Positions 3,413 to 34,660 of a DNA stretch of 34,660 bases are shown piece after piece. The stretch covers positions 1 to 34,660 of IMG/VR virus record IMGVR_UViG_3300029286_000143. One strand, 5' to 3'. Both the position numbers and the translations under genes were made by a program. Every line of letters begins with the position of its first letter. Within the stretch, counting starts at the first letter, position 1. Below the pieces are notes generated by a model. It was not told the DNA's origin. It ran no database searches and saw only the letters and a list, made by a program, of their open reading frames with translations. This DNA is from a virus.

Positions 3413-4962
3413 GTGAAGATTATTTTTACAACAAGAAACGGATAGACGATCTTGAAGAAGGAAAGATTGTAGCCATTGACAGACTCAAAGGTAGAGTCTC
3501 TTTGTATCTAAGAAATGGTTTAGTATCCACAGGCACTTATTTATATGACATAAAGAATCTCCGAGAAGGAATGAGTGTTCTTATTGGAAGGGTAAGTAAT
3601 TCTTATGTCATCATAAATGAAGTAAAAGGAATTCCAAAAGAATCAGTGGCATCTTGTAAGTCTAAAACAAGTACAATGGATTGGAGTGCTTTTTATACAG
3701 CTTCCGGAGCAACAGCAGTTAAAAGGGCTGCCAGAATAAATAATAAATTACTTGCTGTAGGAAACAACGGAGAGAAGATGTACACAGAAGATCCAACAGG
3801 GGGTTCAGGTTGGAACACTTTATGTGGTGGTGCTCATATAGGGAATATTCCTGAGAATCCTTTAGTCAACGTAACTTACGAATTGACTATTGAATCTGGA
3901 GATTCTTCTCCTTTCGGTCCTTTGTATATGGTTAAAGTATCTGGTGAAGGTACTTTTGAGGATAATTATTATACACCAAGAATTCCTGCACTGGGATGCA
4001 CTGGACAGGATGTAATAGAATTACGAACTTCCTTAGAAATACAAGAGACTTACACAGAAGGAGATCCTCCTGTCGATCATACTGAAGATGAGAATTATGA
4101 GGTTTGTCAAACTCTCAATTCGGATGTCAATGTAACTGCTACTTGTGGTAATGCTACAATAGGTTATGTAGGTTCTTTGACTTTGAAACCCGGAGAAACT
4201 ACAACTTTCTCCATAGAAGGAGCTGAAACTCATGTTGGTGCTTTGACTCTTTATATGGAAGAAGGGGGAAATGGTTCTTTTGTTAATGGTGTTTATACAG
4301 CTTCTCTAGCAACCGATGATTGTATGGGAAGTGCTACTATAAAACTAAAATCCGTATCTTCGGAAACTTGTTTTACTGCTTGTGATTCAGTGGAAATAGA
4401 AGTAGATGGACAACCTAAATGTAATGGAGCAACTATAGGATTTACTACTCAACAAATGGCTGTAGGGGAATCTCAAACTTTAACAATAATAGAAGGAGAA
4501 ACTCCTCCTTACGGAACTATGAGATTTAATTTATGGTCTGGTGGTGGTTCTTTTTCTGAAAATACTTATACAGCAGCAGCCGAAAATCCCGACTGTGTTA
4601 ATAATGCAGGAATTCAGTTGCTTTGTGAAATAGATGGATGTTCCCCAGAAATATGTGATACTTTGAATATTTCGGTGAATGCTGTATTGGGAGATGACCC
4701 AGCAGGATTTGATAGAATAGCAAAGAGTGAACAGTGTGAGTATTGGCCTAGTGGTTGTGGTGAAACATGGTGGTGTTTATCTACATGTTGGGACAGATAT
4801 TTTAAATGTGATGGAACAGTGCTATCTCAAAATAGCACAAGTTTAGCTGGTCCATATTGTGTTGGTTGTGGTTGTGCCGCAGCTAACTGTCCAATACCTT
4901 TTGAAGATAGACGAACACCTGCTATGATAGCTGCTGGTTGTTGTCCAGAACAATTATTGTAA
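3409..4962 (+). CDS. Cysteine-rich tail protein with Ig-like repeats
   Basis: This 517-residue protein overlaps the previous stop (ATGA). Residues about 1-75 look like a small OB or SH3-like barrel (KIVAIDRLKGRVSLYLRNG). Residues about 150-425 contain three related Ig-like repeats, each with an ATIGY or TYELTI strand, a GE..T.SIEG turn and a GSF..GVYTA strand, with cysteines at comparable positions. The last 80 residues hold 11 cysteines, including CxxC, CxC and CC clusters and several Trp. That density is unusual for a protein assembled in the bacterial cytoplasm and suggests metal binding or disulfides formed after release. Probably part of the tail tip or adhesin complex. Confidence 0.7.
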   Translation: MSEDYFYNKKRIDDLEEGKIVAIDRLKGRVSLYLRNGLVSTGTYLYDIKNLREGMSVLIGRVSNSYVIINEVKGIPKESVASCKSKTSTMDWSAFYTASGATAVKRAARINNKLLAVGNNGEKMYTEDPTGGSGWNTLCGGAHIGNIPENPLVNVTYELTIESGDSSPFGPLYMVKVSGEGTFEDNYYTPRIPALGCTGQDVIELRTSLEIQETYTEGDPPVDHTEDENYEVCQTLNSDVNVTATCGNATIGYVGSLTLKPGETTTFSIEGAETHVGALTLYMEEGGNGSFVNGVYTASLATDDCMGSATIKLKSVSSETCFTACDSVEIEVDGQPKCNGATIGFTTQQMAVGESQTLTIIEGETPPYGTMRFNLWSGGGSFSENTYTAAAENPDCVNNAGIQLLCEIDGCSPEICDTLNISVNAVLGDDPAGFDRIAKSEQCEYWPSGCGETWWCLSTCWDRYFKCDGTVLSQNSTSLAGPYCVGCGCAAANCPIPFEDRRTPAMIAAGCCPEQLL

Positions 4963-4973
4963 AAGGAGAAGTC

Positions 4974-5354
4974 ATGAAACAATTGACAGAACAAGAATTT
5001 AAGGATAGAGTGGAAGCAATTCAGAGAGCTAGAAAGATATTTGTTATGTCAGGATTGACCGATAATATCAGCACAGCTTTTGCAATATACCAAGAAATTT
5101 TTGCAGAAACAGAACGACAACTATTGATTACCACAGAACAGAAAGTTCCAATAGGAATGAGACTTTCTCCGTTAGATGATTATGAAAGACCAAAATGTCC
5201 AACTTGTAATGAAGAAATGGCTTTGAGAGCAATACCAGAAAATGAACAAGGTTTCAAAACTCAATGGGTTTGCCCAACAGAAACATGTGATGTGCTTAAT
5301 TCTGAAAACGATATTAATTGGTGGTTTGACAATTTAAAAAGAAAGGAAAGTTAA
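4974..5354 (+). CDS. Small zinc-ribbon protein
   Basis: I chose the ATG at 4974 because it follows AAAAGGAGAAGTC. An upstream in-frame start would sit inside the preceding gene. The 126-residue protein has an N-terminal helical half (EQEFKDRVEAIQRARKIFV) and a C-terminal zinc ribbon with CPTC (cysteines spaced by two) and a second knuckle WVCPTETC, about 30 residues apart. The role is unknown. Such ribbons often mediate protein or nucleic-acid contacts. The gene is one of a run of three small coupled genes and is followed without gap by another zinc-ribbon gene. Confidence 0.7.
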   Translation: MKQLTEQEFKDRVEAIQRARKIFVMSGLTDNISTAFAIYQEIFAETERQLLITTEQKVPIGMRLSPLDDYERPKCPTCNEEMALRAIPENEQGFKTQWVCPTETCDVLNSENDINWWFDNLKRKES

Positions 5355-5542
5355 TGGATATCCAAGCATTAATAAATTCCTTAAAAAAGACATCAAAGAA
5401 AGATCCTATTCCTGGAACAACTGAAGGGGAAGTTCGGAAGTGCCCTTCTTGTGAGAATACCACTTTGTATAATTACAAAAAGTGTTGTGGTAATCCTAAT
5501 GGATATTTGGGATGTAAGTGTGGTTACAAGGTGTCATTATGA
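5354..5542 (+). CDS. Very small zinc-ribbon protein (62 aa)
   Basis: The start codon shares its first base with the preceding stop (TAATG), a typical coupling. The protein has an N-terminal helix (IQALINSLKKTSKK) followed by two cysteine pairs, KCPSCENTTLYNYKKCC and YLGCKCGYK, which together can ligate one zinc ion. The function is unknown. It may act with the neighbouring zinc-ribbon protein encoded directly upstream. Its stop overlaps the next start. Confidence 0.65.
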   Translation: MDIQALINSLKKTSKKDPIPGTTEGEVRKCPSCENTTLYNYKKCCGNPNGYLGCKCGYKVSL

Positions 5543-5886
5543 TTGAAATTATAGCAATGGTTATTTTTGCAGAAGCAATTGTAAATCTTGTTTTCAAAGG
5601 AACAGTTCTCCAACCTTTGAGAGATACTATAATCAATCATACAGATTTTTTAAGAGTAAGAGGAGAGCATCCTCTAGAATGCAAACTTTGTGTTTCTGTA
5701 TGGGTAGGTTTGTTATCAAGTTTGGTTTATCTGTTTTTAGGAATAGTTTGTATTAAATGGTTTGTGATGGGCATTGTTATTCACAGACTAAGTAATTGGT
5801 TTCATTTAGTAATAAGTCTACTTGCAGATATTCAGATGGATAAAAGAATAGATAGAAGAAAAAACTTGCAACAAAAGCCCAATTAG
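5539..5886 (+). CDS. Small membrane protein, DUF1360-like
   Basis: The ATG at 5539 overlaps the previous stop (ATGA), so I prefer it to the upstream in-frame ATG at 5518. The 115-residue protein has a hydrophobic N-terminal helix (IIAMVIFAEAIVNLVF), a central motif PLECKLCVSVWVGLL and a second long hydrophobic stretch (about residues 57-95), giving two to three membrane helices and a basic C-terminal tail (KRIDRRKN). A CxxCxxxWVG motif before a membrane helix is characteristic of the small DUF1360 membrane proteins seen in phages and sporulating bacteria. The function of that family is not established. The assignment is by motif only. Confidence 0.6.
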   Translation: MIEIIAMVIFAEAIVNLVFKGTVLQPLRDTIINHTDFLRVRGEHPLECKLCVSVWVGLLSSLVYLFLGIVCIKWFVMGIVIHRLSNWFHLVISLLADIQMDKRIDRRKNLQQKPN

Positions 5887-5892
5887 TGTATG

Positions 5893-5922
5893 AGAGTTTT
5901 AAGGATGAATTATGAAAACTCT
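5893..5922 (+). other. Inverted repeat enclosing a start site
   Basis: AGAGTTTT at 5893-5900 pairs perfectly with AAAACTCT at 5915-5922 around a 14-base loop that contains AAGGA and an ATG. It could modulate translation of the short frame beginning at 5912 or be a chance structure in AT-rich DNA. It lies in the only intergenic gap over 100 bases in the first 16 kb. Nothing else is evident in 5887-6020 apart from the ribosome binding site of the next gene. Confidence 0.25.
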
Positions 5923-6052
5923 AAATACATTCTCAAATACAGTAAAACCCATCGGCGTTCCTGCCCATACCTTAAAGAACCACACAAATGAAATGAAGTA
6001 CATAAATAGGAGGTTTTACCATGTCTATGCAGAAATTTCTACAAGCGGCTGA
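5912..6052 (+). CDS. Possible 46-aa small protein
   Basis: This short open frame starts at an ATG seven bases after AAGGA and runs 46 codons (beginning MKTLNTFSNTVKPIGVP), overlapping the start of the 6021 gene by 32 bases in another frame. It is the only coding candidate in the 134-base gap. There is no recognisable domain. It may be noise. Support is limited to the ribosome binding site and the gap it fills. Confidence 0.2.
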   Translation: MKTLNTFSNTVKPIGVPAHTLKNHTNEMKYINRRFYHVYAEISTSG

Positions 6053-6374
6053 TCCTATATATAAAAACCCAATTTCTTCTTTTCCTCTCACAGATACGGA
6101 TAAGCTAGCATTGACGGCAGATGTTCCTAAATTGTATGCTATTCCTAGCAATACGGAAATTCTATTATTTCAGTCAACAAAGGATTTTTATGTTCTTTTT
6201 GGAGATTCTACAGTGGTAGTAGAAGTTCCGGATGAATATGATATTCTTGATGGTTCCGCACCAATGCTTAATCCCGAAAAGATTTGTAATGTTTCTTTTT
6301 CCAATTACACTCATGTGTCCATAATCAGTGAAAGTAATTGTGCTGTATTTGTGCAAAGATGGTCAAGGAGATAA
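6021..6374 (+). CDS. Phage protein of unknown function (117 aa)
   Basis: Start at the ATG following TAGGAGGTTTTACC, a strong ribosome binding site. The 117-residue protein begins MSMQKFLQAADPIYKNPISS and is predicted to be mainly beta-strand (KLYAIPSNTEILLFQSTKDFYVLFGDSTVVVEVPD). There is no signal peptide or membrane segment. By size, composition and position between tail proteins it is probably a minor virion or tail-assembly component. I recognise no family. Confidence 0.65.
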   Translation: MSMQKFLQAADPIYKNPISSFPLTDTDKLALTADVPKLYAIPSNTEILLFQSTKDFYVLFGDSTVVVEVPDEYDILDGSAPMLNPEKICNVSFSNYTHVSIISESNCAVFVQRWSRR

Positions 6375-6377
6375 TCA

Positions 6378-6794
6378 ATGTGCATAAGAGCCAATGTAGA
6401 CATAACAATTGTTGAGGGAGGAACATTTAACCAGACTTTTCAATGGAAGACTGGAGACCCTTCTGTAATAGTTGATATTACTGGATACACGGGTGATATG
6501 CAGATCCGTGCCAAAGTCAGAAGTGAAACAGTTTTGCTTGATGTTCCTTTTCAAACAATACCTTGGGTTGCTGATGGAGCCACAGGAATTTACATTTACC
6601 CTAATGGCACTCTTGATGTAGATAAAGGAAAATGGCGTATTTACTTAAAAGATGATGATACCCAAGGATTGTGTGCAGTTCATAAAAACATTATTGGTGT
6701 TTATGACTGTTTCTTGTACAATATTGATGAAGAAGCAGTTTTGCAAATGTATGGAGTAGCTACCATTATTGCAGCGGTGACAAGAGATGAATGA
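6378..6794 (+). CDS. Tail/baseplate small beta-sandwich protein
   Basis: A 138-residue protein with the pattern ITIVEGGTFNQTFQWK, then a DITGYTGDMQIRAKV strand pair, then GIYIYPN and KGKWRIYL. This order (V-E-G-A/G-T-F-x-x-x-F-x-W, then DLTGY-x-A/G-x-MQIR) is one I associate with small phage tail or baseplate-attached proteins in diverse dsDNA phages, usually encoded next to fibre genes. The exact role is not established. It overlaps the downstream collagen-like gene by 8 bases, so the two are translationally coupled and may assemble together. Confidence 0.65.
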   Translation: MCIRANVDITIVEGGTFNQTFQWKTGDPSVIVDITGYTGDMQIRAKVRSETVLLDVPFQTIPWVADGATGIYIYPNGTLDVDKGKWRIYLKDDDTQGLCAVHKNIIGVYDCFLYNIDEEAVLQMYGVATIIAAVTRDE

Positions 6795-7050
6795 TGTAAT
6801 CATTACTACCGAAGAAGGTGTGGTCACTGTAATAGAATCCATAGAAATTGGTCCTCAAGGTCCAGTAGGACCAGTTGGTCCTCAAGGTCCTCAAGGTCCA
6901 GTAGGACCAGTTGGTCCTCAAGGTCCTCAAGGGGAGGGTGTAGTTGATGGTGAAATCCATTTTACACCAAAGAGTGGTTCTACAGGACCCGTAGGAACAG
7001 TTTATTTTGATTCAGATGATGAGCATTTGTGGGTAAGCATAACATCTTAA
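6787..7050 (+). CDS. Collagen-like tail protein
   Basis: This 87-residue protein contains about ten consecutive Gly-X-Y triplets (residues 22-51, GPQGPVGPVGPQGPQ repeated), the sequence rule of a collagen triple helix, followed by a short C-terminal beta module (GTVYFDSDDEHLWVSITS). Collagen-like repeats are well known in phage tail fibres, where they form trimeric linkers. Proline occupies the X and Gln or Val the Y positions, as in other bacterial and phage collagens. The 3-prime end lies in a 77-bp tandem duplication. Because the gene is so short, it likely supplies a linker joining trimeric fibre subunits. Confidence 0.75.
   Translation: MNDVIITTEEGVVTVIESIEIGPQGPVGPVGPQGPQGPVGPVGPQGPQGEGVVDGEIHFTPKSGSTGPVGTVYFDSDDEHLWVSITS
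6850..6921 (+). repeat. Two identical 36-bp collagen-coding repeats
   Basis: Two perfect copies of a 36-base unit (6850-6885 and 6886-6921), each coding for four Gly-X-Y triplets, are followed by a partial third. Identical codons in both copies point to recent slippage or unequal exchange. Copy number may vary between related phages. Confidence 0.85.
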
Positions 7051-10350: not shown

Positions 10351-13300
10351 GTGGCATACACAAACGCAATATTTTACATGGACTACGAGCTGGGCGTTGA
10401 TGCAGCTCGGACAGCGTTGACTGACGTTGCCTTCGCTACCAGCGGTGGGGTGGTGAGAGGAACGAAGAACACTCACGGTCTTGTGACAGGTGCGGCCATT
10501 ACAATCTCAGGTGGAACGGTTTATGACGGGGATTGGCTCGTCAACAAGATAAACGACAACACTTTCGACCTCTACACAACCAACGCATTCGGAACGATAA
10601 CTGTTAGCGGGACACCGGTAGCCGATCAGACCTTTGTCGTTGGGGCGCAAACCTTTACATTTAAGGCTACACGGTCCGGAGCAGGCGAGGTGACCATAAG
10701 TGCGGACAATGTCGTACAGGCCACTAACATTGTGACTGCAATCCTGACAGACCTCACTTCAACCATAATGGCATACAACCACGACACAGCGATTGTGACC
10801 GTGAGAAATATAATCGGCGGGACGGCAGGCAATACCGTTGACTTTACGGAGTCGGCTACGGGTGTTGCAGTAAGTGGATCAGGGCATCTTGCAAGTGGTG
10901 CTGATTCAACTTACATTTCAGACGCAACAGGAACAGTCACCCCATTCGGAGGACAAAGTTTTATTGATGCATGGAAGACAATAACCTTAGGGGCAACGGC
11001 TGCACGAATAGCGCCTGGGGACGTTGTGAGGATTGCGAAGAGTTCCGACCCTGTTTCAATAGGGGATGGACAGTGGACGGGGAATTCAGTTTTTGCTGAT
11101 GGTTCTTTGTATGCCTTTACAATTTCAGTTTCAGTTTCAGATACGACCCCTGTTGTGGTAACCATAGGGTCGGGTTATTTGAAAACAATCAATGCCACTC
11201 CTACTGCAGGTGGTTCGGGGTATACTGTGGGGGATATCCTGACGGTTAGTCCCGGTTTGGGAACCGTTGAAGTTACAGGAGTTTCTGCGGGATCAGTTAC
11301 GTCGGTGTCTTTGTTGACTAAGGGTCAAACAACACATACTGTGGGGGTAGGGAGATCGACGACAGTCTCCCCAGTTGGAGGAACGGGCTGCTCTTTAGAA
11401 ATTATAGAAATCTATCATAACTTCACAAACGGTCAAGTTGTTTATGTCTATAGTTTAGGTGCTTTGGAAGCGATCGGGTTTTGGCAAGTAGCAAACAAAA
11501 CAGACACCACTTTTGAGTTAGAGGGGGCTGTGGCGAGTGGGGTTGGTACTAGTGGGTCGATATATCCGGCTGACAGGCATTGTGTGGTATTAGCTGCCGC
11601 ACGGACAAAGACAGTAGATAGGTGCGAGGTTGCTTGGACTGGGGGAACCTATTGTACCTCCAACAGATTGGATTCGGCCGTTCAAGCATATAAGTATTCA
11701 CAACCACCAGCCAACACGAAGTTAGCGTATAAGACTTTATCTGCGGTTGATTTGGACTTCAGTCTCTACGATCGTATAAATTTTGTTTTGATGACCATGT
11801 ATGCCATTGGAGCTGGGAATTTGAAGTTTTGTTTGTGCTCTGATAATGTAGGAGCGACTATTGTTGATGAATTTGAATTTGGAGCCATTTCTTATCTGAA
11901 TACCACTGGCTGTGCTGCCGTAATTGACTTAGTTAAAACAGGTGGTGGGACATTGGGTGAACATATTAGATCCGTGGCTTTGTATAGTTCTACCGCACCC
12001 CCTGCTCAGTACAGTATAGTTTTTGATCAAATAGTTGCTTGTAAAACGGGGGATCTTGACTTATTTTCAAAGATCAGCAAGTCTTCTTCAAATGACGGGG
12101 GAAATGAGGGTTGGTATGGAGTTGGCAATATAAGTCAAACAGGTAAGATCATTAATTTTAAGGTTTCGTGGAATCAGACTTCTATACCTTCCCCCCAATT
12201 GTATCGGACGGGGTATGCAGGCGCGACAGAGAATGTCTCGACATATATGCGTAAGCCTGTTAAATTGCCTATCGGCAACTTGGCGTCGAGTTGGAACATA
12301 ATTCAAGATTCAGGGGCGGAGGGAAACCCAATCCAATTTCAAGCTGGGTTTGACGTAGCAACGGGGTTACAAGATGATGAAACAGCTTTTTCCATGGACA
12401 GTTCTATATATGCAGGCGGGAATGGTCTTGCTTGTAAGGCAAACGTTTCAAACTTGTGTATCAACAGGATTGGTGTTTTTGGCTGTTATTATGGGTTTAA
12501 TATATCGACCACAAATCTGAATGTGACTTTTACAAAAATTTTTAATGCGGCCTGTAATGAGGCCGGTGGGTTTGTGTCAACAGGACCGGGATTAAAAGTG
12601 GGCATTATTGTAAATGCAAACAATAACGGTGGCACTGGGGTTCAAGTGAGTGCAACTACTCCGAGTGCAACTACTCCGATTTTTGTGATTGATAAGATTG
12701 TAAATGCGGTCGGGAATTTTGCATCAGGGGTTTCGGTTGGAGGAAGTGTCACATCGTATGGTACTGTAACAGAAATTGAGAGGATTAGTAATAACAATAT
12801 TGGGGCACAAATTGCTTATTCGACGATCCTTTTAATTTCATATATAGGGTATGGTGACGGATACGGGTTATATGTTTATGGAGGATCTTTAATTGGGGAA
12901 GTAACTGAAATATATAAAATGGCCTCAGGCGGGGTGTATTTTGCGGGTCCAGCAATCATTAATTCACTACCTAAAATATCCCATTCTGCGGCGGGTGCGA
13001 TTTTAGGATCCCCTGCTGCCGTAGGAGCTAAAGTATTAAGTTTGGGGGACGTTCATGGAAACACGACGGGGTTTGTTATAGATGCCGGGTCTTTGATAAC
13101 GGTTTTGGGCGGAGAAGTGAAGGAAAGCGCTTTGGCATACTCCATAGCTGGTGGGGGAAGTCTTTTATTGTTTGATACTATTTTGAGTGATAGTATGGAC
13201 ATTAACCCGATCGCTGCTACTAGCCTGTTCGTTAGGGCGACTCGACTTGATGACACGGACAATAATCATTGGACTCTTTATAGTTACGGCACTATAAATT

Positions 13301-14485: not shown

Positions 14486-16473
14486 AAAATGTTGCGAGTC
14501 AAAAATGGATTGTGTTTGCCTATGATTCAACTACAGGGCTCGCTAAAACGGGCGATGCTGGCAATATAACCGCGAACATACGAATTGATGGTGGAGCGGC
14601 TGGTGCGGTAGGCGATACAAACCCAACGGAGCTTGAGGACGGGTATTATGTCTTCGATATGACCCAGGCTGAAACAAATGGGAACCTACTTCTCCTTTGT
14701 CCCGCATCCGGAACGGCGGACATCATCGTGATAGGCGTGCCGGGGGCAGTATGGACGAGGGACGCTACCACTGTGCAGATGGGCGTCAACCTTGTCAATA
14801 TCGCAGGGGTAGCGGTTAGTGTGACAACGGCTCAGCTCGGCGTCAACGTGGTTCAGGTTAGTGCAGATGCAACAGCAGCGGACAACCTTGAAGCGGCCTA
14901 CGACGGAACAGGGTATGCTGGGGGGACGATCAAACAGAAAGTAGATGTTGACACAATCAAGACGCAGACAGTCACCTGTAATGCAGGCGTTACCATAGGC
15001 GCTTACGTGGGGAATGCGACAGCAGCAATATCCGTCGATGCAAGTGGCCGTTTGGATATCATAAAGATCGCAGGTATGACACAAACGGCTCGGGATATCG
15101 GAACGAGCGTCCTTCTTTCATCTGGGACGGGGACAGGGCAACTCAACTTCACGAGCGGGGTTGTGAGCGCTAACATGACGCAGTACAACGGTGCCACGGC
15201 TCACACCGGGACGACGTCGGGTCTTATACCGGCAGAGCTTCACCAGATACTTGGTCAGTCGGTAACGTGTGCAGCGGGTGTGACCTTTGGTGCTTACGTT
15301 GGGAACGCGGGTGCTTTGCAGTACACGGATGCAAACGGTCGAGTTGATATTATAAAAATCGCAGGTACAACACAAACAGCTCGGGACATCGGATTAAGTG
15401 TTCTTCTTTCTTCTGGTACTGGTACTGGTCAGATAAGCTTTACTAGTGGCATTGTGAGTGCAAACATTACACAGTACAATGGTACTACAGCCCATACTGG
15501 AACAACATCCGGACTTATACCAGCAGAACTCCATCAGGTACTTGGTCAGTCGGTAACGTGTGCAGCGGGTGTGACCTTTGGTGCTTACGTTGGGAACGCG
15601 GGTGCTTTGCAGTACACGGATGCAAACGGTCGAGTTGATATTATAAAGATGGCAGGGACCACATTGACTGCTAGAGACATTGGAACAAGTGTTTTACTAT
15701 CGTCCGGTACTGGAACAGGTCAACTTGACTTTACATCAGGTGTGGTCAAATCTAACATGGTTCAAATTCTTGCAGCAGCTATTACAGGAACGGCTGCACA
15801 GATTGTGGCAGCATTCACAAAGTGGTTCAATGTTTCTTCACCTACAGGAACAGTGAACAGTATTCCGGACGCTGTTGCAGGAGCAACAAACGGATTGCAG
15901 ATATGCGGGACTTGTGCTGCAACAACTTATGCAAGTTTGACAGTAACAAACGCTCTCACAACAGGTTCCATTGTCAATAGTGGTGTATTTACACAAACAG
16001 GAACGATGACTTTGAATGCTCTGACAGTTACAAATAATCTACTTGTGAGTGGAACAACCACTTTAACAGGAAATGTGACATTATCAGGTACACTAGGAGT
16101 TGGGGCTACTACATTATCAGCTTTGACGGTTACAAATAACCTGCTAATCAGCGGTACAACTACTCATACTGGAGCAGTCACTTTGACTGCTGGCATAAAT
16201 GCTGGAGCAATATCTGGAACATTAGCCAATAATTTTATTACAGCAGTAAGTATTAAAGCTGATGCCATTGATGCCATTCATGATGAAGTAGTAGAAGGGT
16301 CACTAACCTTTAGGCAGATTACGAGACTTGCTTTAGCTGTATTAGCAGGAGAAAGTGCTGGTGGTGGGACAGCAACGATTACGTTCCGAGATAATGCGGA
16401 TAGTAAAAATAGAATATCAGCAACAGTTGATGTTGATGGTAACAGAACGGCGGTGACATTAGATGCCACGTAA
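14479..16473 (+). CDS. Repetitive tail fibre protein (664 aa)
   Basis: The N-terminal 90 residues (ASQKWIVFAYDSTTGLAKTG then LEDGYYVFDMTQAETNG) match a module common at the start of phage tail-associated fibres. From residue 163, two full copies and a partial third of a 97-residue repeat follow (QxVTCxAGVTxGAYVGN ... IPAELHQ), each built of IKIAGxTxTARDIG and SSGTGTGQLxFTSG segments. Residues about 480-580 carry Ala/Thr-rich short strands (SLTVTNALTTGSIVNSG and LTVTNNLLxSGTTT repeats) suggesting a triple beta-helix. The C-terminus is a helical cap then a beta hairpin (ISATVDVDGNRTAVTL). Codon usage changes abruptly inside the gene near 15360. Confidence 0.75.
   Translation: MLKNVASQKWIVFAYDSTTGLAKTGDAGNITANIRIDGGAAGAVGDTNPTELEDGYYVFDMTQAETNGNLLLLCPASGTADIIVIGVPGAVWTRDATTVQMGVNLVNIAGVAVSVTTAQLGVNVVQVSADATAADNLEAAYDGTGYAGGTIKQKVDVDTIKTQTVTCNAGVTIGAYVGNATAAISVDASGRLDIIKIAGMTQTARDIGTSVLLSSGTGTGQLNFTSGVVSANMTQYNGATAHTGTTSGLIPAELHQILGQSVTCAAGVTFGAYVGNAGALQYTDANGRVDIIKIAGTTQTARDIGLSVLLSSGTGTGQISFTSGIVSANITQYNGTTAHTGTTSGLIPAELHQVLGQSVTCAAGVTFGAYVGNAGALQYTDANGRVDIIKMAGTTLTARDIGTSVLLSSGTGTGQLDFTSGVVKSNMVQILAAAITGTAAQIVAAFTKWFNVSSPTGTVNSIPDAVAGATNGLQICGTCAATTYASLTVTNALTTGSIVNSGVFTQTGTMTLNALTVTNNLLVSGTTTLTGNVTLSGTLGVGATTLSALTVTNNLLISGTTTHTGAVTLTAGINAGAISGTLANNFITAVSIKADAIDAIHDEVVEGSLTFRQITRLALAVLAGESAGGGTATITFRDNADSKNRISATVDVDGNRTAVTLDAT
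15248..15647 (+). repeat. Perfect 109-bp direct repeat (two copies) in fibre gene
   Basis: Bases 15248-15356 and 15539-15647 are identical over 109 bases, 291 bases apart, in phase with the 97-codon protein repeat. The sequence between the copies encodes the same protein motif as the segment upstream of the first copy but with many synonymous changes, so the identity of the 109-bp blocks is local and probably recent. Given are the outer limits of the two copies. Confidence 0.9.
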
Positions 16474-16681
16474 ACCAGGATATTGGCCAAAGTATTATTT
16501 TCAAGAAACTTATTGGTCTGATGGATTTTGGGTAGGAGTTTTAGAAGCTCTCCGAAATATCAAGATCATGATTTCAGATATTTGGAAAAATGCTGATGCT
16601 AAGGTAATCAGAGTATCTGGGGAATGGAAAGCAATTACATCCATGAAAGTAAAAGTTAGTGGAACATGGAAAAATATCTAG
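16463..16681 (+). CDS. Small virion-associated protein (72 aa)
   Basis: Starts at an ATG overlapping the end of the fibre gene by 11 bases in another frame. The 72-residue protein is Trp/Tyr-rich (YWPKYYFQETYWSDGFWVG) and has two short related segments, KVIRVSGEWKAI and KVKVSGTWKNI, that look like a duplicated beta-hairpin. There is no membrane segment or signal peptide. Proteins of this size with V-x-x-S-G-x-W-K repeats occur at the end of fibre operons in other phages, as far as I recall, but no function is known to me. Confidence 0.6.
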   Translation: MPRKPGYWPKYYFQETYWSDGFWVGVLEALRNIKIMISDIWKNADAKVIRVSGEWKAITSMKVKVSGTWKNI

Positions 16682-16713
16682 TAGTGAAATACTCTGAAAA
16701 GGAGACCAAGTGA

Positions 16714-17214
16714 ATGGGAGACAAGGAATATTGTGAGCACCACATTGCCAATTCAGAAAGAATAAAAGCATTGGAGGTTGAAATGGACGGCCATGATGAA
16801 AAGACAGCAGTTCTATTCAAAAAGATGGATGACAATACAGCCATACTTGGCCAAATCCAGCACTGTGTTGACACGATGAATCACAGCATGTTGACAGGGT
16901 TCACAACCATGAACAGGGACATGGAGAATCTCAAACAGGCCTTCGATCAACGGTCAGAGGGATTTGACGAGCTGATTGCCGATTCTCTGGCGACGATAAG
17001 TGACATTACTGATCGTGTAGCGGCTTCGGAAGTCACCTTGAAGAACTTTGAGTGGTTCCGTAGCCCAATGAACTCCATCAATGCCAACCTGAGTAAATGT
17101 GTAGCTGGGTGGATATTGAAGGGATTCGGCATATTCCTCATAGTGATGATTGCAATTCATTATCAGGAAATTGGTGCACGATTACTACGATGGCTGACTA
17201 AGCAGGGAGGGTAA
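16714..17214 (+). CDS. XhlA/holin-like coiled-coil protein with C-terminal membrane anchor
   Basis: The ATG at 16714 follows AAAAGGAGACCAAGTGA. The 166-residue protein has an N-terminal CEHH motif, a long coiled coil (about residues 12-110, with ERIKALEVEMDGHDEKTAVL) and a single hydrophobic helix at about 130-150 (GWILKGFGIFLIVMIAIHY) followed by a basic tail. This layout, coiled coil then C-terminal membrane helix, is that of XhlA-like lysis accessory proteins, though those are usually only 80-100 residues. It is the first gene of the lysis cassette and is followed four bases later by the endolysin gene. A tail chaperone is the alternative. Confidence 0.6.
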   Translation: MGDKEYCEHHIANSERIKALEVEMDGHDEKTAVLFKKMDDNTAILGQIQHCVDTMNHSMLTGFTTMNRDMENLKQAFDQRSEGFDELIADSLATISDITDRVAASEVTLKNFEWFRSPMNSINANLSKCVAGWILKGFGIFLIVMIAIHYQEIGARLLRWLTKQGG

Positions 17215-17217
17215 CAA

Positions 17218-17787
17218 ATGAGAGAAACCTTTGAGAAAGCTCTTCCGAAGATTCTGAAATATGAGGGCGGCTACAGCAATCATCCTCTTGACAAAGGTGG
17301 CCCAACCAATCTCGGTATTACCTTGAGCACCGTTCAGCACTTCTATGAGGATTATGATTATGGCGATCTAGATGGTGACGGCGATATTGACATTGATGAC
17401 ATCAAATTGCTGGATACTCCGGAGGAAGCAGCCCCTATCTACAAGAAGTATTACTGGGACAAGATGCGACTTGACGAGTTCCCTGCCGGCATTGATTTCT
17501 TGATGTTTGATTTTGGGGTAAATTCAGGTCCAAAGAATGCAATCAAGATTCTTCAGCGTGCATTGAATATGCAGAGTTACGGACTTGAGGTGGACGGTCT
17601 TCTTGGTGCCAGGACTTTATTCTGCACCAATTCTTGTGTCCGAGACACCCTGATACTGTACATGATCATCCAGAGGGAGGACTTTTACAACAGGATAGTT
17701 ACCAACAATCCTTCCCAACAGGTCTTTTATAACGGCTGGATGAACCGTCTTCGGAGAGTATCACAGGAAGTGTGGGAATTGACATGA
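17218..17787 (+). CDS. GH108 muramidase endolysin with EF-hand-like insert
   Basis: The endolysin cleaves the glycan backbone of peptidoglycan to release progeny. The N-terminal motif ILKYEGGYSNHP carries the expected catalytic Glu (E16), followed by KGGPTNLGIT, an IYKKYYWDKMR segment, DFLMFDFGVNSG and a C-terminal helical VDGLLGARTL region (PG_binding_3-like), in the order typical of GH108 enzymes of about 180 residues. Residues 50-61 (DLDGDGDIDIDD) fit a 12-residue EF-hand calcium loop with acidic residues at positions 1, 3, 5, 7, 9 and 12, followed by IKLL as in dockerin-type helices. It occupies the place of a short helix in ordinary GH108 proteins. There is no signal peptide, so export depends on a holin. 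The stop overlaps the next ATG. Confidence 0.88.
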   Translation: MRETFEKALPKILKYEGGYSNHPLDKGGPTNLGITLSTVQHFYEDYDYGDLDGDGDIDIDDIKLLDTPEEAAPIYKKYYWDKMRLDEFPAGIDFLMFDFGVNSGPKNAIKILQRALNMQSYGLEVDGLLGARTLFCTNSCVRDTLILYMIIQREDFYNRIVTNNPSQQVFYNGWMNRLRRVSQEVWELT

Positions 17788-18095
17788 AAGAAACAGCATC
17801 CTACTTCAAGCGACTTCTCGACCCGAAGGACAACCAGTCTGCTGGTAGGTTTGCATTTTTGTTCCAGGTTATCACTTCCAATGTGGTCGTGTGGTACGCT
17901 TGGGTGATAGCCTGCATTTTGAAGCAGGAATTGGTGCAAATCCCGTCGGGGGTTGTTGAGATATATCTTGCTGCCAATGGGACAGCGTTTGTCGGCAAAG
18001 GCATCCAGTCCTTCACGGAAAGAAAGTATAGGGATGTTGAATGTATTGAACCCACTCAAAAGACAAACATTGATCCCTACAAGGAGGACATATGA
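17784..18095 (+). CDS. Holin-like small membrane protein
   Basis: I use the ATG at 17784, which overlaps the endolysin stop (ATGA). A GTG at 17772 is possible. The 103-residue protein has a cytoplasmic N-terminal helix (ETASYFKRLLDPKDNQSAGR), a clear membrane helix (residues about 24-47, FLFQVITSNVVVWYAWVIACIL) and a weaker hydrophobic segment (54-72) before a charged tail. Its size, position directly after the endolysin, and one or two helices fit a holin or antiholin, but no family signature proves it. Its stop overlaps the next start, so the lysis genes are translationally coupled. Confidence 0.6.
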   Translation: MKETASYFKRLLDPKDNQSAGRFAFLFQVITSNVVVWYAWVIACILKQELVQIPSGVVEIYLAANGTAFVGKGIQSFTERKYRDVECIEPTQKTNIDPYKEDI

Positions 18096-18436
18096 AGATG
18101 GAATATTGGATCATCGCTGGCATCATTGGTGCGGTCATCGTGGGGATATTATCGTATTCATACGGCAGATGCAGCCCAACCCCTGATGTCGTCAATCAAA
18201 TCTCCGAGGCAGCAAGACTTCAATCCGTCAAGGTATACGAGGAACGAATTATTGCGTTGACCAAAGAAAGTCAAGAGAATAAGCGTCTTCTTGCTTTGTC
18301 TGATGCAAGATATAACACCATAATCAGAAAACTTGAGGATATCAAGAAAGGAAAAGCCAATGTGCAGAAACCTACTACTGAGCAAGATCGTCTTGATCGC
18401 CTTAATGCTCTGGGCCTTACCCCTGTGGGCAAGTGA
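18092..18436 (+). CDS. Rz-like inner-membrane spanin candidate
   Basis: Starts at the ATG after AAGGAGGACAT, overlapping the preceding stop. The 114-residue protein has an N-terminal membrane helix (residues 5-24, YWIIAGIIGAVIVGILSYSY) with a periplasmic helical coiled-coil domain (SEAARLQSVKVYEERIIALT onward), the layout of Rz (i-spanin) proteins that bridge the inner and outer membranes during Gram-negative lysis. It ends GLTPVGK. A second frame begins inside it at 18360, as in Rz/Rz1 pairs. This is the main argument for a Gram-negative host. Confidence 0.65.
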   Translation: MKMEYWIIAGIIGAVIVGILSYSYGRCSPTPDVVNQISEAARLQSVKVYEERIIALTKESQENKRLLALSDARYNTIIRKLEDIKKGKANVQKPTTEQDRLDRLNALGLTPVGK

Positions 18437-30101: not shown

Positions 30102-32633
30102 TTAGTCTTCTTTAATTTCAGATTTTCCATACCAACTTTCATCAATGTTTGTAGCTTCCCATTCAATAGGAATAGGAACATTGATCCATTTAAAATGTTC
30201 TAAGATTCTTTCGGTTGCTATTTCTGTTCCTAACTTGATGACAAATTCTTTTTCATCAGGATGACAGTCAATGATACAGCAATCATGAATTTGCCCGATC
30301 ACTTTAGATTTCATTCTACGTTGAATAAATTCAGCATTGAGTTGGGTTAGACTCCAAAGCAAGCAATGAAAAGCAGAACCTTGAAATGCATAATTAACTA
30401 TGGCATTTCTTCCCATGTAACCTGAACATCTAAAACCTGTGAGTAATTCTACATATCCTTTCTTTTCATATTTATCATACCAACCTGTTTGCCATTCTTT
30501 GAATACATTAAACTTTTTCCAGTAAGCAGTTTCAACATTTTTAACATGCTGAATAAATTCAATGTCTGGTTTGCCTTTAGTAGAAAGAACACCTATATTT
30601 TTCAAGTGTTCTGTAACAGTTATGCCATCTCCGGTAGGAAGTTTAGAGCATTCTCTCCATATATTTTTAGCACAATTCTTGTAATAAGAACCATACCATT
30701 CAGGAAAGATAAATCCGTTCTTTGTATAAAATCTTAAATTTTTGGTAACTTTGTCAGCAGGTAATGAAAAAATATCTGCTGCTGTATCTCGGTGCATGTC
30801 TGTGCTGGGGTCTTTACAGTAAGCAATAAGAACAGGATCTCCTGTGTAACAACATCCCATCTTGACTTCAATACCACTGTAATCATAATCTACAATGATG
30901 TTACCTTTAGAAGGAATGATTCCTGATCTTGCATATCTTTTTGCTTCTTCATTACGAACAGGAACATTCTGCAAGTTAGGCTTATCTGATTGTCCACGAT
31001 AAGTACGGGGAATGATTAATCCGAAGAAAGGATGGATACGATTATCATCATCAATTTCTCGGATAAATTGCTTCATGTAAGTACCATCAATCTTTTTAAT
31101 TCTGCTCAAGTCTGTGATTTCTTTTGCAAGAGGAGTATCTAGTTTAGCCATTGTGTCAGCATCAACTGAATTGTTTCCTTTGTCTGTTACTTTAGGAGGT
31201 TTGAGTTTAAGGATATCAAAGAATAGTATTCTTAAATCATCGGATGATCCTAAGTTAGGAAATCTTCCTGTGACTTTGAGAAACTTTTTACATTCCTCAT
31301 AATCAAGCAATTCTATTTTTCTTTCCTCTATTCTCTTTTCTAATTCAATGTGGGAGTTCCTGTAATATTCAACATTAACATTAACCCCATTGATCTGAAC
31401 ATCTCCTAAAGCTAGAGTACCTTCTATAAACAGATCAAGACCATTTTCAAGATGGTCATCTATTAAATCCTTCTGCAAAAAGAATAAATCTCTCGTAAGC
31501 ATAGAATCTATTCCGCCATACAAGAGAAGTTTATTCAAAGGAGCTTGCATTATTCGATTGAAACCAGTTTCATTGACATCCTCAATGTAAGGTTTCATTT
31601 CTTTGTCGTAATTAGGAGTGCCCCAATGAATGAATGATTGAAATTTTAATCCTGAATATTTTGATCGGTTGTCTATGATGTGGGCAGCAATCATCGAACA
31701 CCAGTTCCAATTTCTTGGTTCTGTGTTAAGGATTACTTTAGACCACACATCTTCAAATTGAATATTGTGAGCTGTCTTTTTTGAACTGTTCAGCAAAACT
31801 TCTTTCCATCTTGACATGATATTCTTTTGTTGATGGTTATTCCAATAATTATGTTGAAAGGCAAAAGCATTTGCTCCTTTAATTCTTTCTGTAGAATAAG
31901 AAATAGATGCAATCTTATGGTTTGCTCTATAAGGTTTTAATCCTGTAGTCTCATAATCAAACACTAGATACTTAGAAGGATTATCTATTTCATATTCCAA
32001 TGCGTCACAGACATCATCATAGTCCATGACTATTTTAACATCATCAAAGTTTGGATATTTTATTTCTTTAACTTCTCCTTTTGTTTTTATGCAGTTGATG
32101 GCAAATGATAAGTCTCTGTTGAATTGAGACATGGTTAGGGAATCATCATTATTTTTGTAAGCAAATCCGGGATGATATATGGGAATGATCCATGCATTCT
32201 TTTCATGATCAGGAATGCATAAACCTCTCCAACGAGCAGGAGATAGCTCACTGAAACGATCCATATAAAAAGAAGTTATTGCAGCTTCTCCCATTAACCA
32301 TATGAATTTAGGTTTTAAATCTTTGATGGCTTTTTTTATGTGGGGAAAACAACATGCAATCTCTTGACGAGTTGGTTCTCTGTCTTCTGTTATCCTACAT
32401 CGGATAGCATCTGTTTTCCAGAAATCCTTATAAAGATCAATCCCTAAATCTGCTAATTTGTTTTTGAAAAAAGCACCAATATCTCCATCACCAGGAGATT
32501 CCCCGATGATTAAAGTTTTTAGTCTGCCTTCTCCTTTTGTTTCTGATTTATTGCCTTTGTTTAGTCCACAATCAGGACACATGTGCTCCGTAGAACGAGT
32601 CACAAAATCGTCCATTGAGAAAAAACCATTCAT
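30102..32633 (-). CDS. Uracil-DNA glycosylase domain fused to family A DNA polymerase
   Basis: An 843-residue replicative polymerase. Residues 1-190 are a family 4-like UDG: C19/C22, GESPGDG (44-50), C79, C94/95 and IYHPGF (152-157), with four cysteines able to hold an iron-sulfur cluster. The 3'-5' exonuclease follows: DYETTG (226-231), AHNIQFED (288-295), YGGIDSMLT (372-380). The polymerase has motif A VDYDYSGIE (581-589), motif B R634..K638..F643..YG (647-648) and motif C QIHDCC (781-786). The K-to-F spacing in motif B is one residue longer than in E. coli Pol I, and a Cys follows the catalytic Asp784 where Glu is usual. This fits UDG-PolA fusions seen in other phages. Confidence 0.9.
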   Translation of the reverse strand: MNGFFSMDDFVTRSTEHMCPDCGLNKGNKSETKGEGRLKTLIIGESPGDGDIGAFFKNKLADLGIDLYKDFWKTDAIRCRITEDREPTRQEIACCFPHIKKAIKDLKPKFIWLMGEAAITSFYMDRFSELSPARWRGLCIPDHEKNAWIIPIYHPGFAYKNNDDSLTMSQFNRDLSFAINCIKTKGEVKEIKYPNFDDVKIVMDYDDVCDALEYEIDNPSKYLVFDYETTGLKPYRANHKIASISYSTERIKGANAFAFQHNYWNNHQQKNIMSRWKEVLLNSSKKTAHNIQFEDVWSKVILNTEPRNWNWCSMIAAHIIDNRSKYSGLKFQSFIHWGTPNYDKEMKPYIEDVNETGFNRIMQAPLNKLLLYGGIDSMLTRDLFFLQKDLIDDHLENGLDLFIEGTLALGDVQINGVNVNVEYYRNSHIELEKRIEERKIELLDYEECKKFLKVTGRFPNLGSSDDLRILFFDILKLKPPKVTDKGNNSVDADTMAKLDTPLAKEITDLSRIKKIDGTYMKQFIREIDDDNRIHPFFGLIIPRTYRGQSDKPNLQNVPVRNEEAKRYARSGIIPSKGNIIVDYDYSGIEVKMGCCYTGDPVLIAYCKDPSTDMHRDTAADIFSLPADKVTKNLRFYTKNGFIFPEWYGSYYKNCAKNIWRECSKLPTGDGITVTEHLKNIGVLSTKGKPDIEFIQHVKNVETAYWKKFNVFKEWQTGWYDKYEKKGYVELLTGFRCSGYMGRNAIVNYAFQGSAFHCLLWSLTQLNAEFIQRRMKSKVIGQIHDCCIIDCHPDEKEFVIKLGTEIATERILEHFKWINVPIPIEWEATNIDESWYGKSEIKED

Positions 32634-32646
32634 AATTTACCCCTTC

Positions 32647-33771
32647 TCAAAAAGGAACATCAGCATCATAATTAGTATTATCAGTAGTAGGAGGAGAAGT
32701 AGTTTTCTTCAAAGAGGGTTTTTCTTCTTCAGGTTCTGGTTTACTTATCTGCATCAGAACATGGAGAAAGTCTCCACTAGAGAAATAAAGCGCAGTTTTG
32801 AACCAAGAAAGCTTTGTAGATTTTTGAAGGATTTGAGACAAGAAACGGTTGTTGATTCCGATGTCTATAGGATCTCCACTGTATTTGCATTTGAGACTTT
32901 TCTCTACCCACCCAAGATCATTTGATGCTTTAACAGTGATTTCATTATCTTCTATGTGAAGGAATGATGCTTTACCTGTTCTATCTGACATATCCGCAGC
33001 TAACATTGTGACATTATCAAGAGTTGCTTTTAAATCACCAGGTAATTCAAGAGATGGAAAATCCTGTATGTTAGAAAACAAAGCTTTGATCTTATTGATT
33101 GGCAAATCTCCTTGAATGAAAGAAGTGCTGAAAGTTACTCCATCTTCTGTTCTGAAATGAAGCCATTTACCTTGCATACAGTATTCAATCACAGGAAATT
33201 TAGAAAGTTCCATTGCTTCTTTGCTGAAGATGTTAAAATCATTCTCATTTATTTCAGAGGACATGGTGTATTGACTGATGCGATTTCCGTCAGTAGCATA
33301 GCATTTGTTTCCGACAACGGCAACACAAGCTCGCACACCAGAACTAAGATCAGGAGAAGCAGAGAAAGCACAAAGAGAAACACCATCTAAAAAGTTTTCA
33401 GGAACAGGTTGCCATTCATCCATGTTTTCTAACATCTTCTTGATTAATGCAGGAAGGTTATTCTGATCTTCTCCTATTGTAGCCATTGAAGATGTAGTGG
33501 TTTTGGATCGGACTTTGATCTTGTTGTTCTTCAGTTCGATGATAATTTCCTTATCAGTAATACCATCAATGAGTCTGAAGAATTCTTCACCTTTAACTGA
33601 GAATTGGATATTACATTCAAAAGGAATAGTGATAAGGATTTTATCATTAAAGGTGCATATTAAGTTATCAAAGAAAATGAAGTGGGTAGCTTGTGCTACG
33701 AATTCCCTTTTAGCTAACCCTGGTTTAAGAGCTGCTAACTTATCCCGTAATTCTTTTCTGTCTGTTTTCAT
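32647..33771 (-). CDS. DnaN-like sliding clamp with SSB-like C-terminal tip
   Basis: The 374-residue protein has the pattern of DnaN beta-clamps: CYATDGNRISQYTM (159-164 for ATDGNR), then FLSQIL, KASNDLGWVEKSL and short strand repeats typical of three domain repeats. It is the processivity clamp for the polymerase encoded next. After residue about 340 a flexible tail follows (KPEPEEEKPSLKKTTSPPTT) and ends NYDADVPF, closely resembling the DDDIPF tip of bacterial SSB. That tip normally recruits replication and repair proteins. The start follows AAAAGGAGACTAG. Confidence 0.85.
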   Translation of the reverse strand: MKTDRKELRDKLAALKPGLAKREFVAQATHFIFFDNLICTFNDKILITIPFECNIQFSVKGEEFFRLIDGITDKEIIIELKNNKIKVRSKTTTSSMATIGEDQNNLPALIKKMLENMDEWQPVPENFLDGVSLCAFSASPDLSSGVRACVAVVGNKCYATDGNRISQYTMSSEINENDFNIFSKEAMELSKFPVIEYCMQGKWLHFRTEDGVTFSTSFIQGDLPINKIKALFSNIQDFPSLELPGDLKATLDNVTMLAADMSDRTGKASFLHIEDNEITVKASNDLGWVEKSLKCKYSGDPIDIGINNRFLSQILQKSTKLSWFKTALYFSSGDFLHVLMQISKPEPEEEKPSLKKTTSPPTTDNTNYDADVPF

Positions 33772-33934
33772 CTAGTCTCCTTTTAACAGTTAGTATGGTT
33801 TGACAATCTTTTATGTAGTAGAAGGTCATCAGACGATGATATTCTAATCCCATTTCCACAATACGATCAGCCATTGCTTGTTCTTTTTCTACTTTAGAAA
33901 GTTGTGGAAAATTACCTGATAAATACAGAATCAT
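33740..33934 (-). CDS. Small conserved-looking phage protein (64 aa)
   Basis: Starts at 33934 just after a promoter-like motif and AAGGTGATA. It runs into the clamp gene by 32 bases. The motif MILYLSGNFPQLSKVEKEQAM followed by VEMGLEYHRLMTFYYIKDCQ is one I associate with small phage proteins near nucleotide or modification genes, without a known function. It is predicted to be alpha/beta. It may be a leader gene whose translation affects clamp synthesis, given the overlap. It is the first gene of the replisome run. Confidence 0.65.
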   Translation of the reverse strand: MILYLSGNFPQLSKVEKEQAMADRIVEMGLEYHRLMTFYYIKDCQTILTVKRRLDENRQKRITG

Positions 33935-33980: not shown

Positions 33981-34660
33981 TTAATCAAAAATAGATTTTT
34001 TTGCTGACCAACGCCAAGGATATTTTGGTTGACTTTGTGTTAATTCCAGAAAGTACATTAAATTCAAAGAATCTCTTAATTCTCCATTAGTGCATAGACC
34101 ATCTTCAACTATTACTTCTACCCTAGATTTGTCTTTTCGGTCAAACCAATGTTCATTGTTCTTTAAAACGTAATCGGAATTAACTTGTTTGTAAAGAGTT
34201 CGACCAATTTTAAATCCCCTAATTTCACAGTAATTGATAATCCAATTTTTCTCCATAGAAGATAGGTTCTTGAAGTGTTCTGCATCTTTTATGGATTTAG
34301 ATCGAGATGATATAGCTATTGTATATGGTGGAAAATCATATCGAAATTCACCATACTTTATTCTTGGCACAAGTATTATTCCATATCTACCATACTGAAC
34401 CCAACTGGTAGAATCAATGCTATACCAGGGAAACATATTTATTATTTCAGGAGTTGCTATTCCAAATCCATGTACTTTATGAGTAGGAAAATAGTCGGAT
34501 TTTTCAGTGCATATTTTTTCAAATACGGTTTGTAAAAAAGGAGCTAATGATCTTCCTTTAGCAGAAGCTAAACCACCTACAGCAAAATAAGGATATTCCA
34601 TACACATATCAAGATATTTTGAAGGTTCATCTAGGTGATAAACAGGAATAGGATTTAGTC
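33981..34660 (-). CDS. dpdA: DpdA-like DNA 7-deazaguanine transglycosylase (partial, 5' end outside)
   Basis: The frame is open to the window edge, so the start codon lies outside. The ATG at 34607 is internal: 17 in-frame codons upstream (LNPIPVYHLDEPSKYLD) continue the domain. The motifs IPVYH, EYPYFAVGGLAS, KVHGFGIATPEIIN, and PWYSIDSTSW..YGRYG match tRNA-guanine transglycosylase-like proteins of the DpdA family, where the Asp of SIDST is the predicted nucleophile. DpdA replaces guanine in DNA by a 7-deazaguanine base such as preQ0, protecting phage DNA from host nucleases. The precursor synthesis genes would be expected nearby outside the window. Confidence 0.85.
   Translation of the reverse strand, partial: LNPIPVYHLDEPSKYLDMCMEYPYFAVGGLASAKGRSLAPFLQTVFEKICTEKSDYFPTHKVHGFGIATPEIINMFPWYSIDSTSWVQYGRYGIILVPRIKYGEFRYDFPPYTIAISSRSKSIKDAEHFKNLSSMEKNWIINYCEIRGFKIGRTLYKQVNSDYVLKNNEHWFDRKDKSRVEVIVEDGLCTNGELRDSLNLMYFLELTQSQPKYPWRWSAKKSIFD

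Follow-up and report, generated by a model that had tools for sequence, protein, structure and literature searches.

A 9g-type DpdA at a contig edge and a QueC-like, radical SAM and HAD gene module that may mark a variant route to 7-deazaguanine in phage DNA

Phages with DpdA are already known, and in every phage with a measured DNA base that we compared the QueC protein has canonical or Gat-type motifs. In phages 9g, CAjan and EC151 the DpdA protein has a DSGAF motif, its gene is adjoined by those for a sliding clamp and a DNA polymerase, and folE, queD and queE are nearby; the locus described here resembles theirs in all of these respects. FolE, QueD and QueE make 7-carboxy-7-deazaguanine (CDG) from GTP. 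Canonical QueC carries the signature YxQxHxxE plus YPDC, and the E. coli QueC mutants Y35A and Y131A are dead; E. coli needs both motif tyrosines to form preQ0 (PMC13329287). The QueC-like protein Cap9 forms a 7-amido-7-deazaguanine conjugate of a protein N-terminus (PMC11996544), and glycine is the amine that the phage protein CmoY joins to a base carboxylate as an amide (PMC12783734).

The window analyzed here is a 34,660-nucleotide stretch of viral DNA (IMG/VR record IMGVR_UViG_3300029286_000143, positions 1 to 34,660). At its right end, on the minus strand (33981-34658), lies a frame that stays open for 225 codons and has no start; its stop is at 33981 and its other side is cut by the contig edge. 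The original prediction took this region (33981-34660) to encode a DpdA-like transglycosylase, and this was borne out as follows: the fragment matches PHROG 887 (queuine tRNA-ribosyltransferase) with E=2e-24, and the full-length DpdA of a sister contig (L001) matches the same family with E=6.5e-47. By tblastn the fragment is matched in 180 phage records, with a best E of about 1e-19; 9g-like and EC151-like phages rank at the top. The full-length protein aligns in blastp, over about 228 aa, with the DpdA proteins of 9g (36% identity, E=6e-43), EC151 (35%, E=1e-43) and CAjan (33%, E=5e-37), whereas E. coli tRNA TGT (Tgt) gives a non-significant E=0.21; a match to tRNA-specific TGT alone, which would have told against the original prediction, is thus not what is seen. 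Nor is it significantly similar to the DpdA2 of nt-1 (blastp E=4.8).

The DpdA core motif KVHGFGIATPEIIN-MF-PWYSIDSTSW (34401-34478, minus strand; alignment of 39 relatives) comprises KVHGFGIATPEIIN at 34437-34478 and PWYSIDSTSW at 34401-34430 in the window frame. The 9g DpdA has KVHGFGITSRPLM and YPWYSCDSSSW in the same two places, and the segments common to the two proteins, KVHGFGI and PWYSxDSxSW, are exactly the two that the original prediction had picked out as phage DpdA motifs. Nine positions are invariant in the 39 relatives (D8-S9-G10, Y26, D44, H71, H126, S143 and D145), and they include the His of VHGFG (codon 34470-34472; residue 196 in 9g, 134 in the joined protein below and 126 in L001) and the Asp of IDS (codon 34413-34415). 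His196 in 9g numbering is a hallmark of 9g-type DpdA and is absent from DpdA2 (PMC6884629).

Neither Pfam TGT (PF01702) nor the NCBIfam DpdA equivalog scores above its cut-off, so the protein is a divergent phage-type member. PDB sequence searches, whether started from the fragment or from a profile of two sequences, likewise found no usable TGT match, and the protein had to be placed by its fold; in an hhalign comparison of the DpdA alignment with the single E. coli TGT sequence only the DSG region aligned. The AlphaFold2 model of DpdA from the 39 sequences (mean pLDDT 91.7) has transglycosylases as all of its best structural matches, archaeosine TGT (1j2b, Z 13.2) and the DNA preQ0 insertase DpdA (7ui4, Z 13.1) among them, with Foldseek E-values above 0.001. 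The predicted fold is that of TGT with both putative catalytic Asp residues, D8 of DSG and D145 of (V/I)DS, invariant; by analogy with TGT, from which these Asp roles are carried over, the Asp of IDS would be the nucleophile.

Could the fragment instead be a tRNA-acting TGT that supports host tRNA modification? The name of PHROG 887 and a fold common to tRNA TGTs would fit such a role, but Pfam TGT is unmatched, E. coli TGT is not significantly similar, the gene adjoins replication genes and the substrate of the 9g DpdA is DNA (PMC6884629), and we consider it extremely improbable. Sequence and model together support the reading of the fragment as a 9g-type (DpdA1) DNA-guanine transglycosylase rather than a tRNA TGT, and DpdA itself is an already known kind of enzyme.

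The window holds the 3' three-quarters of dpdA (225 of 296 aa), and the codons for its first 71 residues are on contig L002 (IMGVR_UViG_3300029286_000074), from 9788. The two contigs share an exact end-to-end overlap of 127 identical bases (34534-34660 in the window), past which L002 carries the rest of dpdA, the genes for a HAD-type protein, a divergent QueC-like protein (QueC*) and a radical SAM protein (rSAM2), and folE, queE and queD. We infer that this overlap is the trace of a k=127 assembly graph between neighbouring contigs. The contig reached across it may belong to a strain variant, but the sister contigs L001 and L007 each hold both halves of the junction in one piece and in the same order. 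The joined DpdA is 296 aa long and 74% identical to the L001 protein (289 aa). The other end of L002's contig has no overlap with the window, so the genome does not close into a circle, and some of it may lie beyond the roughly 80.5 kb that the window and the adjoining contig make up together.

On the other side of dpdA, and directly after it, is a gene for a small conserved protein of 64 aa (33740-33934, minus strand) that is also present in the sister phage (L001:10731-10916). The DNA polymerase processivity factor (sliding clamp; 32647-33771, minus strand; phrog_947 E=1.2e-25) and a UDG / 3'-5' exonuclease / family A DNA polymerase fusion (30102-32633, minus strand; PF03167 E=2.2e-11, DNA_pol_A E=1.3e-44) follow, and the fusion is a member of the conserved dpdA-clamp-polymerase neighbourhood. 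The original prediction had added this fusion and a dATP/dGTP diphosphohydrolase-like protein (PF18909 E=1.4e-23) to its case for base-level control of the DNA; both are real, but neither is evidence for deazaguanine. Elsewhere in the window an 87 aa collagen-like protein with GPxGPx repeats is encoded among the tail genes (6787-7050). In L001 the helicase (3-2288) and clamp-loader (16121-18202) genes have, by eye, apparent inteins that the window homologues lack, and an HNH-like ORF (10992-11642, also by eye) lies between dpdA and the clamp gene.

The queD, queE and folE genes and the remainder of dpdA, for which the original prediction had looked to the adjoining DNA, are all on L002. The order there, towards dpdA, is HD protein, QueD, QueE, K/E-rich protein, FolE, rSAM2, QueC-like protein and HAD-type protein, and the precursor gene order is repeated in L001 and L007. 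The L002 QueD scores 103.7 bits against TIGR03367 (cut-off 89.25), its FolE matches PF01227 with E=4e-48, and its QueE-like protein matches phrog_2076 (E=2e-37) and TIGR03963 (E=2e-44, but below NCBIfam's cut-off). No QueF was found in the window, L002's contig or the 89-93 kb sister contigs; the weak QueF hits among the viral contigs were all under the cut-off. In L007 an intein with an HNH domain interrupts the QueE gene (4835-6547). A 9g-type DpdA accompanied by FolE, QueD and QueE supports the original view that the phage DNA carries a 7-deazaguanine, and we regard such modification by this DpdA as very probable.

A queC had also been sought in the adjoining DNA, and a QueC homologue is indeed present, but two essential preQ0-synthase motifs are gone from it. 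QueC* scores about 45 bits against PF06508, compared with 189-241 for canonical phage QueCs. It retains the ATP and zinc motifs (SGGLDS, IPYRN and C151-X8-C160-xx-C163-xx-C166), while in the L002 protein the Y35 position is Leu and VNDK stands instead of YPDC. Among the 22 module loci defined below the Tyr of Y35 is missing in 21 and YPDC occurs in none, LxTPY and V-(S/N)-DK being the replacements for the Y35-Q and YPDC motifs. In a maximum-likelihood tree QueC* forms a single clade (100/100 support) apart from the QueCs of phages with measured dPreQ0, dPreQ1, dADG and dG+. The motif losses predict, without proving, that QueC* is unable to make preQ0, the PxRN motif and zinc site remaining. 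No second QueC was found in the window, L002's contig or the 89-93 kb sister contigs, and host QueC could be a source of preQ0. Of the module's 21 viral contigs, 19 have QueC* in place of a canonical or Gat-type QueC; the other two, which are more distant contigs, carry a Gat-QueC beside it, and since they have both, the two proteins are suggested to have different jobs.

These properties bear on the simplest alternative, an ordinary dPreQ0 or dADG phage in which QueC*, its altered motifs notwithstanding, would yield preQ0 or go no further than the amide ADG, DpdA would insert that product, and rSAM2 and HAD would act elsewhere or only fine-tune. In its favour, dPreQ0 arises in CAjan from FolE, QueD, QueE, a QueC homologue and DpdA (PMC6884629), all of which are encoded here, and the ATP, PxRN and zinc motifs of QueC* are intact. 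However, the QueCs of CAjan (dPreQ0), nt-1, Dp-1, CPt10 (dADG) and 9g (dG+) all keep Tyr35 and the Y/F of YPDC, which QueC* does not, Gat-QueC is retained beside QueC* in two loci, and the constant partnership with rSAM2 (below) would be left unexplained; we therefore judge this alternative unlikely, though it deserves serious consideration. The original prediction had left the precursor as preQ0 or another compound. Deazaguanine pathway genes were found, but plain preQ0 is unlikely to be the precursor, since the one QueC homologue lacks the essential motifs and is accompanied by an extra radical SAM protein and a HAD phosphatase.

How constant is the association of QueC* with rSAM2? A profile search with rSAM2 gave 23 viral loci and one Sulfuricurvum MAG locus, of which 22 were kept after a duplicate and one cut-off contig were dropped. 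QueC* is present in 22/22, dpdA in 21/22 and the HAD protein in 20/22, figures that are counts and not independent events, as related loci, with some near-duplicates among them, were counted. The rSAM2-QueC*-DpdA partnership is thus fixed as seen from rSAM2, and in a search for dpdA loci made without rSAM2 none of the 16 with canonical QueC has it. From the QueC* side the pairing is not obligate, since four dpdA loci (L023, L029, L042 and L046) have QueC* and no rSAM2. The DpdA proteins of the module are scattered over several places of the DpdA tree, some of whose branches are poorly supported.

The rSAM2 model (pLDDT 90.7) has BlsE as its best match (Z 24.7, 301 of 330 residues aligned), followed by SuiB (21.3) and PqqE (20.3), but a fold match at this level of identity (16%) does not show that rSAM2 carries out the BlsE reaction. 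Against the BlsE family TIGR04466 it scores 24.6 bits, where the cut-off is 400, and a sequence search of PDB chains with rSAM2 did not match BlsE. Residues C15/C19/C22, C244, C265, C300 and C303 are invariant in 19 sequences and G260 is nearly so; the pattern CxxxCxxC, C-X15-G-X4-C ... CxxC, its spacing assigned by inspection, agrees with a twitch-type radical SAM protein with a predicted auxiliary cluster. A viperin-like identity, raised by PADLOC pVip hits and viperin PDB hits, was dropped on the whole-length Z values (BlsE 24.7, viperin at most 20.1).

Would rSAM2 then be a BlsE-like decarboxylase that converts CDG to 7-deazaguanine (dDG), the base that Cui et al. 2023 reportedly assigned to 'DpdL'? 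BlsE does its chemistry on a sugar, which is unlike removing an aromatic carboxylate by radical decarboxylation. Simple decarboxylation, moreover, needs no carboxylate-activating QueC*, yet QueC* accompanies rSAM2 in every locus, and the published DpdL, if it came from an isolate, is not detectably rSAM2, as phage isolate records have no full-length rSAM2 relative. We consider this quite improbable even though the nucleoside decarboxylase BlsE (PMC3715490) is the best fold match. QueC* relatives occur in five phage isolate records, none of them among the measured-base phages named above, so that the product of QueC*-rSAM2 phages has probably never been measured. The literature searched, which excluded Cui et al. 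2023 (DpdL/DpdM/DpdN), gives no account of a QueC*-rSAM2-HAD variant.

Weak QatC profile hits for QueC*, and the loss of the same motifs from QueC* and QatC (PMC13329287), raise the different idea that QueC* is a Cap9/QatC-like protein deazaguanylase, for defence or counter-defence, that is in the dpdA operon by chance. However, the neighbouring genes include no recognised qatABD or CBASS partner, most loci have the module embedded between folE and dpdA, and at 222 aa QueC* is too short for the QatC extensions, all of which make this idea very improbable.

We favour a reading in which the phage would swap some of its DNA guanines for a 7-deazaguanine derivative through a variant pathway, with QueC* and rSAM2 in place of canonical QueC; taken as a whole, this statement is about evenly poised between right and wrong. 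The steps, in their presumed order, would be as follows: FolE, QueD and QueE would convert GTP to CDG; QueC* would activate the CDG carboxylate with ATP and join a small amine to it, instead of performing the two rounds of nitrogen chemistry of preQ0 synthesis; rSAM2 and usually the HAD phosphatase would tailor the amine or the conjugate; and the 9g-type DpdA, whose step is well supported, would exchange DNA guanine for the finished base. An amide ligase role for QueC* is proposed because it keeps the ATP carboxylate-activation residues in a changed pocket and because Cap9 and CmoY offer precedents. That the final base differs from the published derivatives is about an even bet. Its more specific form, an undescribed hypermodified 7-deazaguanine made from CDG that QueC* amidates with a phage-specific amine, that the radical SAM protein reshapes and that methyltransferases decorate in some relatives, is put forward tentatively, at slightly less than even chances.

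The module and its surroundings vary among the loci. Methyltransferase-like genes lie within it at L030:1519-2049, L008:9942-10424, L059:9723-10319 and L057:10363-11052, which suggests varied final decoration of the base. L008 also has two distinct DpdA-like genes in tandem on one phage contig (11050-11958 and 11955-12980), and L023 (5639-7313), which lacks rSAM2, has HAD and, in tandem, QueC* and another divergent QueC-like protein. Two dpdA loci without QueC (L028:2423-8825 and L033:2326-8849) have three extra genes between folE and dpdA, whose products are a second small protein that resembles QueD, a radical SAM protein of 450 aa (PF04055) and a glycosyltransferase-like protein, possibly another deazaguanine route. 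The Sulfuricurvum MAG contig (L056, JAQTTG010000010.1) carries the complete module, is probably a phage contig or prophage and as such hints at a host; the same genome has a canonical QueC elsewhere.

The conservation of this unit in uncultured phages, at 22 loci or more, suggests that new base chemistry is at work, and QueC*, rSAM2 and HAD form a concrete gene set for a new DNA base. It could further mean a new substrate for a repurposed QueC scaffold and possibly a new phage escape from host nucleases.

Compared with the known systems, the window DpdA shares VHGFG...PWYSxDSxSW with the 9g protein, but the present DpdAs have a shorter N-terminus than those of 9g, CAjan and EC151, starting just before DSGAF and being 287-296 aa long, and the window polymerase differs from theirs in being an A-type UDG fusion. 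The partner is QueC* here, against Gat-QueC in 9g and canonical QueC in CAjan; PF06508, SGGxDS, PxRN and CX8CxxCxxC are common to QueC* and the canonical and Gat-type proteins, and its length is similar to that of QueC. The rSAM2 model aligns end to end with BlsE, a radical SAM cytosylglucuronate decarboxylase, with a common CxxxCxxC core and C-terminal cysteines arranged in a way that fits one auxiliary cluster; it differs at 16% identity and in having GAEP for GGEP, and the likeness seen is one of predicted fold. Finally, although its base, enzymes and fold are different and the parallel is an analogy only, CmoA-CmoX-CmoY of Synechococcus phage S-B43 follows the same idea as the pathway proposed for QueC*, the use of a base carboxylate as the handle for ATP-dependent amide ligation.
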